Shown: in pieces, positions 191 through 5,765 of the stretch
Position numbering within the stretch: position 1 is the first letter of the stretch
Layout of the letters: every line of letters starts with the position of its first letter
Assembly: GCA_030448085.1 (NCBI GenBank)
Contig: JAUJNU010000062.1
Coordinates: 1 to 5,765, forward strand
DNA: 5,765 nt
Source: Actinomycetota bacterium
GTDB taxonomy: Bacteria; Actinomycetota; UBA4738; CADDZG01; WHSQ01
Reading direction: 5' to 3'
Program-made: the position numbers and the translations under genes
Notes under the pieces: model-generated
What the model saw: the letters and a program-made list of their open reading frames with translations, nothing else
Told to the model about the DNA's origin: nothing
Databases searched by the model: none

Positions 191-1141
191 ATGCGGATCT
201 ACAGATACGCCTCCAAGGGCGGTGGGTACCAGCCGCGCCTTGCCGTGGCCGTCGACGGACAGCCGGTGGACCTCATCGCGGCATGGGACGAGGTGACGGG
301 GACGAGGCTCACCATCCAAGAGGGGCACTTCCTCGTCTCGACGCTCGCTCTGATAGAGGAAGGGCCGGAGGTCTGGGCCGAGGTTAGGGATGTGGTGAAG
401 GCAGCCTCCGGTCTTCCGACACTGACGCTCGACACCCAGGAACGCGGATTCAAGCTCCTCACCCCGTTCGACCGGATCCCCTCGCTGAAGGACTTCTTGG
501 CGTTCGAGGACCACGTCAAGAGAGGGGCCGCCCGCCGCGAGGGCGAAATCCCTCCTTATTGGTACGACGCCCCCATCTATTACAAGGGCAACCACAGGGC
601 GATGATCGGCCCGAACGAGGAATGCCGGTGGCCGAGATACACCGAGCGTCTGGACCTCGAGCTCGAGCTCGCCATGATCGTGGGACGGCGCGGTCGGGAC
701 ATCGCAGAGGAGAACGCACCGGAATACGTCTTCGGCTTCACGATCTTCAACGACTTCTCGGCCCGCGACATCCAGAGCAAGGAGAGGTCCGCGTGGCTGG
801 GGCCGGCGAAGGGCAAGGACTTCGCCAACGCCTTCGGGCCCTGCATCGTCACCGCCGACGAGGTGGGGCCGGAGCCGGACCTCGAGATGATCTGCCGGGT
901 GAACGGCGAAGAGTGGGGCCGGGCGCGGTCCTCCGACGCCCACTGGTCCTGGGGGTCGATGATCAAACACGTCTCGGACTCCGAAGACGTGTATCCCGGC
1001 GACGTCTACGGGTCCGGAACGCCCGGAGGCTGCTGTGGGCTCGACATCGGGAAGCAGCTCCAACCGGGCGACGTGGTCGAGCTCGAGGTGGAACGGATCG
1101 GAACCCTGCGCAACGTTGTAGGGAGGCGCAAGACTGCCTGA
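191..1141 (+). CDS. Fumarylacetoacetate hydrolase (FAH) family protein
   Basis: Soluble cytoplasmic enzyme of 316 aa, a usual length for bacterial FAH-family hydrolases, which act on C-C bonds of diketo or oxo acids using a divalent metal; some members are decarboxylases or hydratases. Residues 1-75 form the variable N-terminal part and about 98-312 the catalytic fold. Compared from memory with mouse FAH, the metal ligands match D101 (in DFLAFEDH), E157 and E159 (LDLELELA), and D188 (FNDFSARD). The catalytic His is H108, and R192, Q195 and K209 (AKGKDF) also correspond. The C-terminal signature GDVYGSGTPGG followed by LQPGDVVELEVERIGTLRN is typical. The start at 191 gives the expected N-terminus (MRIYRYASKG); the ribosome site is weak, perhaps GAGCAG at the end of the preceding gene. 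The exact substrate cannot be read from the sequence. Homogentisate, homoprotocatechuate and sugar-acid pathways are all possible. Family assignment is firm; pathway is open. Confidence 0.95.
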   Translation: MRIYRYASKGGGYQPRLAVAVDGQPVDLIAAWDEVTGTRLTIQEGHFLVSTLALIEEGPEVWAEVRDVVKAASGLPTLTLDTQERGFKLLTPFDRIPSLKDFLAFEDHVKRGAARREGEIPPYWYDAPIYYKGNHRAMIGPNEECRWPRYTERLDLELELAMIVGRRGRDIAEENAPEYVFGFTIFNDFSARDIQSKERSAWLGPAKGKDFANAFGPCIVTADEVGPEPDLEMICRVNGEEWGRARSSDAHWSWGSMIKHVSDSEDVYPGDVYGSGTPGGCCGLDIGKQLQPGDVVELEVERIGTLRNVVGRRKTA

Positions 1142-1210: not shown

Positions 1211-3337
1211 ATGAAGGAAAAGATGCAGAACTGGTTCGTCAAGCTACGGCGTACCAGGGCCGCTCGTAAGAAGAGTGGGAAACGGATGACGTACGTCCTG
1301 CTCCTCATCCTGGTCCTGTTGCTGGGCTCCTTCGCGTGGTCGATGAGCTTCCTTTATTACTCCCCGGACCCGGCCGGGACCGAGATCGGGCTCGAGCAGT
1401 TCAGCGCCCTCGCGACAGAGGGCCGATTGGTGAACGCCGATTTCAAGGATGAAGACCTTGTCGTGACCGGTCAGTTCAGCGCGGCGGAGCCTGCGGAAGA
1501 AGACCAAAAGGCCAAAGGCGACGCCAAGTCTGGTGGCCAGGGCAAGAACGGGGATGGAGCCGGAGACAAGGACGAGGAGCCGGCGGGTGACGCCGGGACC
1601 GAGGTCGAGGCCGAGACGGAGCCCGAGGTATCCGTAGCGCCTCCCGGAGCGGGAACCTATTGGGCCGCCTACCGGGACCCCATCACTGCCAGCCTGGTGA
1701 CGATCGCGACCACCGGGGGGGCAGAGGTCACCGTGGACTCGCAGGCCCCCAAACAGGCGGTAAGAGCCGTTTCCACCTTCCTCCTGCCACTGATGATCCT
1801 TGCCAACCTGTTCGCTCTCCTATTCACGGCAGGACGAGGCGGGGGCTCGGGCATCGGTGACGTGCAGATGTTCGGCACGATCGGTAGAGGCAAGGTGAAG
1901 AAGGGTGCCTCCACCGTCACGTTCGAGGATGTCGCCGGAGCGACAGAGGCCGTTGCCGAGCTGAAAGAGGTGAGGGACTACCTTCGAGAGCCACAGAAAT
2001 ACAAGGAACTCGGCGCCACTCCGCCCAAAGGTGTCCTGCTAGTCGGGCCTCCGGGCTGCGGGAAGACGCTGCTCGCCAAGGCCGTTGCCGGAGAGGCCGG
2101 AGTCCCGTTCTTCTCCGTTGCAGGCGCCGAGTTCGTCGAGTCCCTCGTCGGCGTTGGCGCGGCCCGTGTGAGAGACCTCTTCGCAAGGGTGCGGGCAGTC
2201 GCCCCTGCCATCGTCTTCATCGACGAGCTGGACGCTGCGGGACGCAAACGTGGGTCCGGAAGTGGCGGTGGAGGAAGTGACGAGCGGGAGCAGACACTCA
2301 ACCAGATGCTCGTCGAGATGGACGGGTTCGACGTCAGCCGGGGCCTCGTGGTGATCGGCGCAACGAACCGCCCCGACATCCTCGACCCGGCCCTTCTGCG
2401 TCCCGGGCGTTTCGACCGCCACGTGACGGTGGACCAGCCGGACGCCGAGGGACGACAGGCGATACTCGAGCTACATGCGCGCAATAGGCCCATCAACCCC
2501 AACGTAGACTTCAGCTACCTCGCCAAGCGGACCCCCGGGTTCTCCGGCGCCGACCTCGCAAATGTGATCAACGAAGCCGCGCTCCTAACCATCCGGCTCG
2601 AGAAGGGCACGATCGAGCTGCCCGAGTTGGAAGAGGCGATCCAGAGAGTGCTGTCCGGACCGCAGAAACGGGGCCGGATCCTCTCGGACGAAGAGCGGAG
2701 CAGAGCCGCGTATCACGAGAGCGGCCACGCGGTCGTGGCCGCTGCCGGCGGGAGCCACGAAGAGGTGCACCGTGTGTCGATCCTGGCTCGGGGCAAGGGC
2801 ATCGGGCTCACGAACGCACGCAAGGAGACGGACGCGATCCTCCTCACCCGCTCCGAGCTGTTCGCAGACCTCGTTACCTCGATGGGCGGCCTCTCGTCCG
2901 AGGAACTGGTTTTCGGCGAGCACTCCACGGGGGCCGAGCAGGACCTCGAGCGCGCAACGGACATCGCTCGCGACATGGTCGGACGGTTCGGGATGGGAGT
3001 TCGCAGACGACGGCTGCTTGCGAGAGGCGTGGATGAGTTCCTCAACAACGAGATCGCCCTCGCAGAGATCTCACCGCAGACCCATCAGGAGATGGAGGAA
3101 GAGGTCGACGCGCTCTTGGCAGAAGCAGAACAGGAGGCGAGTCGGCTCCTGGCCGCGCACAGAGAGATCCTCGACAACCTCGCCCAGAGGTTGATCACGG
3201 AGGAGACGATCGAGGGAGCCGAGCTGGACTCTGTCCTGGAGAGCATCCGTTCGAACGGCCATCACCCACCGAAGGTTGATGCGCTTGCCGACGGGGCGCC
3301 GGCTGCAAAGAGAACCCGGACCGCGAAGAACAAGTGA
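1211..3337 (+). CDS. ftsH: Divergent FtsH-family membrane AAA+ zinc metalloprotease
   Basis: ATP-driven inner-membrane protease of 708 aa; FtsH hexamers extract and degrade membrane and cytosolic proteins. Order: basic tail 1-25; first membrane helix about 27-49; extracytoplasmic domain about 50-185, split by an acidic low-complexity insert (about 92-146); second membrane helix about 187-206; AAA+ module about 235-430 with Walker A GPPGCGKT (279-286), Walker B IVFIDE (334-339) and Arg fingers R397 and R400; AAA lid to about 480; M41 peptidase with HESGH (502-506) and third zinc ligand D578; helical C-terminus; basic tail. Odd points: Cys replaces the usual Walker A Thr; pore loop SLVGVG has L312 where FtsH normally has Phe; RGKGIG stands where RGxALG is usual; and an Arg cluster (598-601) replaces the normal SxxLGPxxY stretch. 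All catalytic residues remain, so it should be active. This is probably a specialised paralogue beside a housekeeping FtsH elsewhere. Its stop overlaps the next start, implying coupling to the secreted protein. Confidence 0.95.
1484..1648 (+). other. Acidic low-complexity insert in the FtsH extracytoplasmic domain
   Basis: About 55 codons (FtsH residues 92-146) are rich in Glu, Asp, Gly, Ala and Lys, with almost no hydrophobic residues. They interrupt the small extracytoplasmic domain between its FtsH-like first half ([20 protein letters not shown]) and second half ([10 protein letters not shown]). The segment is predicted to be disordered and would face outside the cytoplasm. Confidence 0.75.
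3334..3337 (+). promoter_or_regulatory. GTGA start/stop overlap coupling ftsH to the downstream gene
   Basis: The GTG start of the downstream gene (3334-3336) overlaps the TGA stop of ftsH (3335-3337). In the downstream frame the nearest upstream stop is TGA at 3277-3279, and no ATG, GTG, TTG or CTG lies between it and 3334. The GTG is therefore the only start that yields the intact signal peptide. There is no strong Shine-Dalgarno (only GAAGAA nearby), which fits re-initiation by ribosomes finishing ftsH. Confidence 0.8.
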
Positions 3338-5765
3338 ACCGTCTCCGCCTCACCAGCTGTCTGCTGCTGCTCGCCCTGCTGGGGGCCTCGCTCATATCTC
3401 CTCTGGCCACCAGCGCGAGCGCGGCCGCCTGCGCCGCGATCAGGAAGACGGGCCCATGGGAGAGGATCGACGCACCCGCTTTCTCGGCGGGCCCAAGCGC
3501 GATCACGGGATACGCGGTGGATCCCGGCGACACCAACCGGCTCTACGCGACCAACGGCGCAGTCGTGATGGTCTCGATCGACGGGGGCTGCAAGTGGAAG
3601 CAGAGCTACAAGCCGGACGGCGGCACCCTGCCGGGGGGCTCCGTGAAGATCGAGCACATCGTCACCCCCCGCGTGAAGCAGGCAGCCATCCTCGCCGAGG
3701 AGAAGACGGCCGCGGGCACCACGCGGCCCCGCGTCATCCTGTCCACGGACGGAGGTGACTCATGGCGTGAAGGTGGCTCCGGGCTGCCGCCGTTGGGGCA
3801 CGCCGAGTTCATCAAGGTCGCTCCCAACACGCCGAACCTCATCTACGTCGGAGTGGACTCGGGCGATGGCGTCCTCGACGTCCTGTACGCGAGCAATGAC
3901 GGCGGCGAGACCTTCCTCCCTCGCTCCGACCCTTCGAAGGTCACGCCACAGATGGGGATACAGAGGCTCGAGGTCGACCCTTCCGACGCCGACTCGCTCT
4001 GGGCCTCCGGCACCGGCGGCCTCTACCACTCGACCGACGGCGGCCGCTCGTTCCCTCGCGTAAAACACTTCGATGGCGTGGCTGTTGGTCCGGTCGACGT
4101 CTTCCACGCTCCGGACTTCCCGGCCCGCGTGATGGCGTTCGTACCGAAGAGGGAAGAGTTCGAGATCTCGAGGAACGGGGGCAAGGACTGGTTCAGGGGA
4201 AGCGCCCCCACGGGCGTCACCGTCGACTCCGCGACCCACGGGATCCTCCAGACTCAGGTAGTCATCTCCGGGAACGGAAACGTCTTCGGCTATAACGACG
4301 GAACCAAGTCATTCGAGAACCTGAAAGCGCCGGAGCAGGGCGTCAAGGGCATGACGGCCACGAGAGCGGGTGTGCTCTTCTATTACGGCTACAGTCCCAG
4401 GGCGATCGTGAAGCTCACGGCGAACAGGACGGGCAAGCCCGGTACCGGCCCCACCGAGATCGACCCCGAGGTTTCTCTCGTGCAAGACCCCGAGTCCATC
4501 GCGAAGGCCAGCGCGTTCGGTCCCACGGGTCAGAGGATCGTGCTGAAGCCCGGTAACTCCCGCACCGTGAAGTTCAAGCTGGACCTGCCGCGTCGACCGG
4601 TCCCGCTGGACGTGTACTTCCTCGCCGACACGTCCTCCAGCATGACGGCTACCCTGAACGGACTAGCAGAGTCGATCGGGGACATCGCGAACGGCCTCGC
4701 CTCTCAGAACCTCGACGTCGAGTTCGGCTTGGCCGAGTACAGGGCCTATCCGTACTCTTGCCCGCCGCGCGCCGACGAGCCAAACTACGTGTACAAGCAG
4801 GTGCAGGACATCGGCCCCATCGGCCCGGGGCTGGAGAAGGCGATCGAAGGACTCGAGCCAAACGCCGGCGGCTACTACGACGCCCACCTGGGAGCTCTTT
4901 ACCAGACGGCGACCGGCTTCGGGCAGGATCTGTTCCCGATCGGTGTCGAGAACAGTTATGACGTGGAGAGTGGAGACCAGGCTACTTTCAGGGACAAGGC
5001 TCTGCGCGTGGTCATCAACGGGACCGATGAGGTCTTCGGTACGAACCAGTCCACCAACGACCTCGACGGCACCTCCCAATCACCGACCTGCGCCCTGCAG
5101 CCTACGCCGAAGATCCCGAATTTCGCCGACGTCATCGCTCAATTCAACGAGCGCAACATCGAGCACCTCGGACTGTCCATCAAGGCCCCGGGAGAGTCCT
5201 CCTACTTCGACCTAGCGAAGATGTCGCGTGGAACCGGAACCTTTGCAACGACTCCGGTTGATTGCGACGGGGACGGCAGCCCAGACGTGGCCGTCGGCGA
5301 GCCTCTCGTCTGCGAGCTGAGAAACGGGAACAGCGACGCCGGCCTCGATCTCGTCCCGGCGGTGGTCGGCCTCTTGAGGTCCATCCAGTACCAGGCGGCC
5401 GTGGAGCTCGACGTCTCGAAGGGGACCGAAGTCGTCGAGAACGTCACTCCCAAGGTCTACCCATCGATCGTCCTGCAGTCGTCGCACAGCCTCGGGTTCA
5501 AGGTTCAGTTCCACTGTTCGCGAAAGCAGCAGGGAGAGCGTTTCCCCGTGCGGCTGCATCCAGGGGGAGCACCTGGCCTCTCCACCCTCGAGGCCAAGGC
5601 GCTGGTCATCTGCAAGAAGATCCCCAAGCCCGAGCCCAAGGAGCGCAAGGAGCGCAAGAAGGTGCCGCCGATAGCGATCGCGGGCCCCCCGGGAGTGGCC
5701 CTCCTAAGCCTCGCGGTGCCCCCCCCCCCCCCCCCGCCCGCTCCCGGCAGCGCGCGGGCCAGCGC
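3334..5765 (+). CDS. Secreted Asp-box propeller plus integrin-beta-like hybrid/beta-I (VWA) protein, 3' end cut by window
   Basis: Open frame of at least 810 codons with no stop before the window end. Residues 2-30 form a Sec signal peptide: NRLRL, a Leu-rich core, then probable cleavage after ASA (28-30). About 40-390 carry five Asp-box repeats, starting at S81, S137, S187, S233 and S279, typical of BNR/sortilin-like beta-propellers. About 399-760 resemble integrin beta chains: a hybrid-domain strand (GQRIVLKPGNSRTVKF), then LDVYFLADTSSSM with MIDAS residues D432, S434 and S436, GGYYDA (512-517), D565 in INGTDEV, NFADVIAQFNERNIEHLGLS, a closing helix (LVPAVVGLLRSI), and a return strand VELDV with a second hybrid-like half to C760. 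A CDGDG loop (644-648) may bind calcium. The tail is Lys/Glu/Pro-rich, then a hydrophobic stretch and a proline run. Exported, probably surface-attached, with a role in adhesion or sensing; the ligand is unknown. Eight Cys in the mature part suggest disulfides. Similarity was judged by eye. Confidence 0.88.
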   Translation, partial: MNRLRLTSCLLLLALLGASLISPLATSASAAACAAIRKTGPWERIDAPAFSAGPSAITGYAVDPGDTNRLYATNGAVVMVSIDGGCKWKQSYKPDGGTLPGGSVKIEHIVTPRVKQAAILAEEKTAAGTTRPRVILSTDGGDSWREGGSGLPPLGHAEFIKVAPNTPNLIYVGVDSGDGVLDVLYASNDGGETFLPRSDPSKVTPQMGIQRLEVDPSDADSLWASGTGGLYHSTDGGRSFPRVKHFDGVAVGPVDVFHAPDFPARVMAFVPKREEFEISRNGGKDWFRGSAPTGVTVDSATHGILQTQVVISGNGNVFGYNDGTKSFENLKAPEQGVKGMTATRAGVLFYYGYSPRAIVKLTANRTGKPGTGPTEIDPEVSLVQDPESIAKASAFGPTGQRIVLKPGNSRTVKFKLDLPRRPVPLDVYFLADTSSSMTATLNGLAESIGDIANGLASQNLDVEFGLAEYRAYPYSCPPRADEPNYVYKQVQDIGPIGPGLEKAIEGLEPNAGGYYDAHLGALYQTATGFGQDLFPIGVENSYDVESGDQATFRDKALRVVINGTDEVFGTNQSTNDLDGTSQSPTCALQPTPKIPNFADVIAQFNERNIEHLGLSIKAPGESSYFDLAKMSRGTGTFATTPVDCDGDGSPDVAVGEPLVCELRNGNSDAGLDLVPAVVGLLRSIQYQAAVELDVSKGTEVVENVTPKVYPSIVLQSSHSLGFKVQFHCSRKQQGERFPVRLHPGGAPGLSTLEAKALVICKKIPKPEPKERKERKKVPPIAIAGPPGVALLSLAVPPPPPPPAPGSARAS
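3574..4191 (+). repeat. Five Asp-box (BNR) repeats at protein level
   Basis: Five degenerate copies of S-x-D/N-G-G-x-x-W/F: SIDGGCKW (81-88), STDGGDSW (137-144), SNDGGETF (187-194), STDGGRSF (233-240) and SRNGGKDW (279-286). Spacing is 46-56 residues, as expected for successive propeller blades. Several copies are preceded by an N/D-x-L-Y/W strand (NRLYA, NLIYV, DSLWA) that normally opens an Asp-box blade. Five boxes are seen, so a six- or seven-bladed fold would need blades lacking the box. Confidence 0.85.
4528..5613 (+). other. Integrin-beta-like hybrid / beta-I (VWA) module
   Basis: Residues about 399-760 of the secreted protein. A VWA domain (about 423-688) sits between two short beta-rich flanks. 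The order matches integrin beta chains, in which beta-I is inserted into the hybrid domain. The MIDAS motif is DTSSS (432-436). The Asp pair that builds the integrin ADMIDAS site is replaced by Thr and Ala after SSSM, and the specificity loop is shortened to about YPYSCPPRADEPNY. The later flank keeps VELDV, then LGFKVQFHC and ALVIC, where integrin has VELEV, a VSFSIEA-type strand and the final VTFDC. Confidence 0.7.
5641..5658 (+). repeat. Two tandem copies of a 9-bp unit in the stalk
   Basis: GAGCGCAAG occurs twice head to tail, in frame, encoding ERKERK within a KPEPKERKERKK stretch. It follows the last hybrid-like strand and looks like a charged linker or stalk. Confidence 0.8.
5719..5735 (+). 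repeat. Homopolymer of 17 C inside the coding frame
   Basis: Seventeen consecutive C, 30 bases before the window end. Read in frame it gives most of a seven-proline run (residues 796-802), followed by APGSARA. It may encode a real proline-rich tail, or it may be a sequencing or assembly artefact at a contig end. Any length change that is not a multiple of three shifts the frame, so the translation after 5719 is unreliable. Confidence 0.85.

Follow-up and report, generated by a model that had tools for sequence, protein, structure and literature searches.

A beta-propeller protein with an integrin-beta-like VWA module, encoded next to an FtsH-like protease gene in Actinomycetota

Integrin-beta-like VWA domains have been described outside animals in a protein of Trichodesmium (PMC3192720) and in the integrin-beta-chain-like proteins of cyanobacteria, together with the Sib proteins of Dictyostelium, described as combining a vWA domain, bacterial-like repeats and a transmembrane domain (PMC2651865); these papers, like the others cited here, were consulted as extracts. 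In these extracts, descriptions of bacterial relatives go no further than partial matches, and the origin of the integrin beta head is an open question. Animal integrins are heterodimers in which the beta chain is paired with an alpha subunit carrying an FG-GAP propeller. Here, we analyzed a stretch of 5,765 nucleotides of contig JAUJNU010000062.1 from an Actinomycetota bacterium (assembly GCA_030448085.1), referred to as the window, whose last gene encodes a beta-propeller followed by an integrin-beta-like VWA domain. The protein belongs to the bacterial integrin-beta-like VWA family and, because neither the Asp pair of the site adjacent to the metal ion-dependent adhesion site (ADMIDAS) nor PSI, EGF and tail domains were found, is not an integrin. 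The kind is already known, since the first two papers and database entries show bacterial integrin-beta-like VWA proteins; we found no earlier listing of a propeller fused to such a domain in a membrane-anchored protein beside an FtsH-like gene, and a literature search with most subscription journals outside its reach returned neither titles nor abstracts dealing with a propeller/integrin-beta-like VWA protein from Actinomycetota. We consider it rather likely that the protein is a metal-dependent surface receptor or adhesin working like an integrin headpiece. The computed basis for this prediction is the homology of the VWA domain and its N-terminal flank with integrin beta, the conservation of the metal ion-dependent adhesion site (MIDAS), the signal peptide and membrane segments of the relatives, and the FtsH synteny of one set of copies.

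At least 52 relatives were identified at E ≤ 1e-3 in a protein search with residues 385-770 as query, scoring being limited to the 7995 candidates with the most words in common with it. Alignment A1 holds 45 of the 52 at full length together with the window protein (46 members), and alignment A2 holds the module only, from 50 of the 52. The features of the gene are as follows.

3334-5763, plus strand: propeller/integrin-beta-like VWA gene, GTG start, 810 codons (810 aa), open at its 3' end.
3334-3429, plus strand: signal peptide, residues 1-32, from the sequence and from an N-terminal hydrophobic stretch in 42 of 45 relatives; predicted cleavage site.
3433-4428, plus strand: BNR/Asp-box beta-propeller, Asp boxes at residues 81, 137, 187, 233 and 279; predicted borders.
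4516-4602, plus strand: N-flank, residues 395-423, hybrid-like strand or strands preceding the VWA domain, from hhalign against shuffles and part of the PDB profile matches.
4603-5391, plus strand: integrin-beta-like (beta-I-like) VWA domain, residues 424-686, from PDB profiles, Pfam and hhalign; predicted end.
4627-4641, plus strand: MIDAS motif D432-T-S-S-S436, from its conservation in the 46 members.
4879-4881, plus strand: D516, candidate equivalent of the integrin MIDAS Glu, in the register of the stronger alignments.
5023-5031, plus strand: T564-D565-E566, third MIDAS loop, with D in 46/46 and E in 43/46 members.
5260-5313, plus strand: Dx[DN]xDG-type loop with two invariant cysteines (D643-C644...C660), predicted to lie at the beta6-alpha7 position.
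5395-5613, plus strand: C-flank, residues 688-760, apparently all-beta, with an invariant Cys at its end, homologous to the C-flank of the cyanobacterial family.
5614-5763, plus strand: charged, Pro-rich stalk, which in the relatives continues into QAQ-rich sequence, a membrane segment and a tail of basic residues.

The reading frame at 3334-5763 is genuine, as judged from its relatives and from a codon-position GC of 0.63/0.49/0.85, which is alike in both neighbouring genes. No tandem repeats were found. A run of 17 C at window positions 5719-5735 lies in the Pro-rich stretch, and the window ends just past it. Beyond a common PAP-S, the last residues of the window protein are unlike those of the relatives, and because of this mismatch an assembly or sequencing slip at the run is possible.

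Taken alone, the window protein matched the Pfam model Integrin_beta with E 0.018 and 15.2 bits (cut-off 24.8), and its best match in PDB was integrin beta-8 (E 0.044); by itself, this single-sequence match is borderline and a lead only. Across the 46 members, Integrin_beta was matched by 39 at E ≤ 0.1, PF00092 (VWA) by 25 and the Dictyostelium Sib model (PF24909, vWA_SIBA-E) by 22. A profile of ten modules (the window and nine of 25 genome loci, the others being short, broken or distant) was then compared with all PDB chains, sequences being counted at E ≤ 10. The best 60 of the 75 rows comprised 59 integrin beta chains (2.4e-12 to 2.6e-5), and complement factor B, the sole non-integrin there, came last with E 0.009. 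With three distant bacterial members added to the ten modules, the best E was 1.2e-18 and the best 60 of 79 rows all carried integrin beta names. In the ten-module search a beta-6 construct, matched from the VWA domain onwards only, scored E 1e-7, and the VWA core thus itself carries the integrin signal. By hhalign, whose E-values here are those of single comparisons, the 51-row family alignment matched integrin beta-3 with Prob 86 and E 5.4e-6, aligning in order QRIVLKPGNSRTVKF, PLDVYFLADTSSSM, YKQV, the TD strand, NERNIEHLGLSI and AVELDV, while the broader profile A3 matched it with Prob 98 and E 1.1e-12, aligning QRIVLKPGNSRTVKF, PLDVYFLADTSSSM, YKQV, the TD strand and also NERNIEHL. An ordinary bacterial VWA domain, whose integrin likeness would be generic VWA signal, would fit the values of the single sequence and the preference of the distant members L018 and L019 for generic VWA models, but it is very unlikely: the family profiles place integrin beta far above other VWA domains among the PDB rows listed, the N-flank alone is significant against beta-3 (see below), and the control L024, a more distant bacterial VWA protein and itself a weak hit of the search that gave the genome loci, matched the VWA_4 and VWA models but gave no Integrin_beta match at E ≤ 0.001. 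The family PDB profiles and the shuffle test of the N-flank largely refute it, and the original prediction, made by a model from the window sequence, was right in placing the domain beyond a generic VWA, as seen from the 59 integrin rows and from E 1e-7 for beta-6 against 0.009 for complement factor B. In a tree of 37 VWA rows, from which seven of the 13 chosen cyanobacterial-type rows had been dropped because the motif was not found in them, the two integrins fell on a long branch beside P0052 in an unsupported position (60/67), and nothing is therefore concluded on the direction of transfer. P0052 is a relative combining an integrin-beta-like VWA domain (33 bits) with thrombospondin type 3 and RTX repeats, and its MIDAS loop, DLSGSYADDL, holds a DD pair resembling the integrin ADMIDAS.

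The match to PDB starts ~35 residues before the VWA domain, in a strand that integrins assign to the hybrid domain. Aligned alone by hhalign with the corresponding stretch of beta-3, the N-flank scored 14.84, a value reached by none of 200 shuffles (mean 7.1, maximum 12.3), and the N-flank of the cyanobacterial family scored 18.8, likewise reached by none of 200. When the N-flank profile alone was searched against PDB (13 rows), integrins were not significant (beta-2, in two constructs, E 0.66 and 0.69; beta-7, 3.1), these rows falling at the expected place, and the top rows were a designed propeller (E 0.0013), a YSIRK surface protein (0.034) and auracyanin (0.19), all of them unrelated. The C-flank scored 13.73 against beta-3 and 12.96 against a profile of four integrins, values equalled by 14/200 and 21/300 shuffles, respectively, and its profile returned six PDB rows, none of them an integrin; for the cyanobacterial C-flank, the corresponding scores were reached by 92/200 and 58/300 shuffles. 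The C-flanks of the two families are homologous to each other (hhalign E 7.8e-6, one comparison), and the order of strands and Cys in the window family is co-linear with the integrin hybrid domain, which is suggestive. As far as sequence comparison goes, the likeness to integrin beta exceeds chance for the VWA domain and the N-flank. The proposal that matching flanks on both sides place the VWA domain inside a hybrid-like domain is thus half shown, on the N side only, because the N-flank beats all 200 shuffles and the C-flank does not.

The MIDAS is highly conserved among the 46 members, with D432 and D565 invariant, S or T at position 434 in all, and S in 45 and T in one at position 436. For the loop GGYYDAHLGALYQ, the 51-row hhalign sets GGYYDA on GGFDA with a one-residue gap, as had originally been proposed, whereas the A3 hhalign and both HMMER PDB-profile alignments set it ungapped on DAPEGGFDAIMQ (DAPEGGFDA). 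We prefer the ungapped register because its matches are stronger, and in this register D516 would take the place of the MIDAS Glu of integrins, which we take to be E220 in beta-3. The match of GGYYDA to GGFDA is accordingly the doubtful member of the predicted segment order. At position 516 the members have D (30), N (7), E (3), K (3), R, G or A (one each). The ADMIDAS Asp pair, which would follow DxSxSM, is absent, the window protein having A439-T440 and none of the 46 members D or E at position 440. Near the end of the VWA domain, DCDGDG...PLVC contains D643, C644 and C660, which are invariant in A1, and a motif of the Dx[DN]xDG type (named in PMC3123361). C644 and C660 likely form a disulphide, which the strand order would place in the beta6-alpha7 region. 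In integrins this region is an allosteric lever, and the DCDGDG loop would therefore be a natural place for regulation.

A query with the protein of Okeania retrieved 1031 proteins of the wider integrin-beta-like family. Among the best 120 of these, many named rows were cyanobacterial (Okeania, Nostoc and others), and Chloroflexota, Archangium, Bryobacteraceae and Actinomycetota were also found. These bacterial integrin-beta-like VWA proteins (PF00362, PF24909) are homologous to the window family over N-flank, VWA domain and C-flank and match the same Pfam model, and the modules of the window family and the cyanobacterial family align by hhalign over 324 columns with Prob 99.8 and E 1.3e-27. 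The Okeania protein L011 (530 aa) differs in having a weak, below-cut-off RicinB-lectin match and no propeller match, and it keeps DTPEA where the window family has YYDA. Animal integrin beta is alike in sequence in the VWA domain, the strand before it and the MIDAS loops. It differs in that the window family is without the ADMIDAS pair, shows a likeness to the C-terminal half of the hybrid domain that is within the range of shuffles, and carries in the same chain a propeller of another, BNR-type family. PSI, I-EGF and beta-tail domains were not among the 16 Pfam families matching any of the 46 members at E 0.1.

Among the 45 relatives in A1, the N-terminal hydrophobic stretch mentioned above is accompanied by a C-terminal one in 43, with a short and mostly basic tail behind it, and a QAQ/QPQ-type motif was found in 44. 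Since most relatives have both hydrophobic segments, the family proteins are exported and probably span the membrane once.

The propeller of the window protein matched Sortilin-Vps10 in Pfam with E 1.9e-6 and 27.4 bits (cut-off 33), a model matched by 45 of the 46 members at E ≤ 0.1, and BNR and PSII_BNR likewise under their cut-offs. The repeated Asp boxes, five in the window protein, together with the family-profile match place it among the BNR/Asp-box propellers. The best PDB rows of the propeller profile were cellulose/xyloglucan-active proteins (6p2m_A, E 4.3e-21; 2cn2_A, E 3.7e-18), and the rows also included Ycf48 (8am5_S, E 6.2e-9) and sortilin (5znn_A, E 1.9e-8). A cell-surface enzyme, in which the propeller would serve for glycosidase-like catalysis or for glycan binding and the VWA domain would only direct it to a substrate, would agree with these best rows and with the match to the NCBIfam model F510_1955 'glycosylhydrolase' (E 1.4e-15), but this match reaches 57 bits against a cut-off of 175 and Asp boxes are generally structural, not catalytic, and we regard such an enzyme as improbable. 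The surface receptor or adhesin that we favour has an analogue in architecture in the type IV pilus adhesin PilY1, which also combines a VWA domain and a beta-propeller in one exported bacterial chain and acts in adhesion and mechanosensing (PMC11891296, extract); in PilY1 the VWA domain precedes the propeller and the protein is tied to type IV pili. In the Ktedonobacteraceae protein P0110, an Integrin_beta match of 42 bits and a propeller also share one chain, but the propeller is of the RCC1 type and C-terminal to the VWA domain, and P0110 is apparently an independent propeller/integrin-VWA fusion.

The neighbouring genes in the window, and the LVIVD-repeat genes (another type of exported propeller) adjoining the family gene elsewhere, are the following.

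191-1141, plus strand: gene for an FAA-hydrolase-family enzyme, first of the three window genes, all on the plus strand.
1211-3337, plus strand: FtsH-like AAA+ zinc protease, upstream neighbour (TIGR01241, 641 bits, cut-off 600).
L001:11649-14048: LVIVD-repeat proteins, two genes downstream of the family gene.
L055:536-1807, minus strand: LVIVD-repeat protein, one gene downstream.
L004:1843-3066: LVIVD-repeat protein, upstream.

The GTG start at 3334 overlaps the stop codon of the FtsH-like gene (GTGA). The best matches of the window FtsH in genomes G001 (72%) and G003 (62%) sit directly upstream of a family gene. In G004, a single match passed E ≤ 1e-40 (62%), and downstream of it is a partial family-like gene, cut by the contig end after 215 residues that share 70% identity with P0034 over 187 residues. 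In G002, the contig starts with a C-terminal fragment of a peptidase M41, with locus L002 downstream of it. Five genomes (the window and G001-G004) thus each have one copy linked to FtsH, a grouping made after the fact, and the three loci that resemble the window most (46, 42 and 37%) are among these copies. The FtsH motif was found beside none of the six other copies scanned, namely L004 (36%) and the more distant L005-L008 and L015. The window protease has an acidic low-complexity insert before the AAA domain, shared with the copies at L001, L003 and L053. The alignments of the remaining FtsH copies in G001-G003 begin no earlier than residue 148, with one exception, a 64% copy located at the end of G002:C156. 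A factor for extracytoplasmic assembly or quality control that acts with the FtsH-like protease, similar to Ycf48-like propellers and with a VWA domain docking clients or the protease and not an outside ligand, would account for the FtsH-type gene upstream in the window and four further genomes, for the GTGA overlap in the window, for the insert in the four FtsH copies read and for the propeller matches to Ycf48 and sortilin besides glycosidases. We nevertheless think it unlikely, as none of the six other copies has the FtsH motif beside it, the long stalk and Pro/Gln-rich linker better suit surface projection, and Asp-box propellers are functionally diverse. The LVIVD-repeat proteins are possible partners of the family protein; no LVIVD repeats were detected in the tested neighbours of L002, L003, L005, L006, L007, L008 and L015, which were part of all neighbours there.

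As a surface receptor or adhesin, the protein would be a single-pass membrane-anchored protein whose exported N-terminal propeller and VWA domain stand on a Pro/Gln-rich stalk, with the integrin-beta-like VWA domain held in a small beta-sandwich. The MIDAS would bind a divalent metal that captures an acidic ligand, and the neighbouring propeller may add specificity. Ligand state or a pulling force could be relayed towards the membrane by the flank sandwich together with the Ca-type loop, which has a likely disulphide close to alpha7, and the co-encoded FtsH-like protease might control folding or turnover of the receptor. Several points speak against this interpretation. VWA domains have non-adhesive roles too, and the distant members L018 and L019 score higher with generic VWA models than with Integrin_beta. 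The C-flank scores lie within reach of shuffles both for beta-3 and for the four-integrin profile, with no integrin among its PDB rows. The presumed MIDAS Glu position is D/N/E in 40/46 members and K/R/G/A in six, in a register that the 51-row hhalign disputes, and the ADMIDAS pair is missing. Furthermore, the window copy is without its C-terminus, its own membrane anchor being predicted from the relatives.

The family offers an integrin-type VWA domain, a preceding hybrid-like strand and a propeller in one probably membrane-anchored chain, in a recurring gene neighbourhood. A more far-reaching interpretation, which we put forward as speculative, is that of a one-chain bacterial counterpart of the integrin headpiece, in which the propeller would sit on the MIDAS face with the ligand at the interface, the flank sandwich would swing to signal or bear force over the membrane, and the pairing would have arisen repeatedly. 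If so, the repeated pairing (the RCC1 fusion in P0110, the LVIVD genes nearby) would suggest that the combination of propeller and beta-I is an older, bacterial solution, and eukaryotic integrins could have drawn their beta part from it. The family makes it testable whether a propeller/beta-I interface and metal-dependent ligand binding are older than integrins or arose in parallel.

Matches at E ≤ 1e-10 were found in 11 of 396 genomes sampled from the phylum, with at most four candidates scored per genome, and in five of 24 genomes of the class of G001; among these phylum and class genomes, E-values below 1e-100 were obtained in G001-G004 only. Near relatives with titles came from uncultured Actinomycetota, including some metagenome-assembled genomes labelled Frankiaceae. 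On viral contigs, 157 pattern matches yielded no relatives. Through the genomes labelled Frankiaceae, G005 and G006 were reached, which have nine and four matches at E ≤ 1e-10, respectively, pointing to an expansion of the family in both. L010 (G003:C15, around 423036-424226) is a broken copy of the family gene, with pieces in different frames, one of them containing an in-frame stop.

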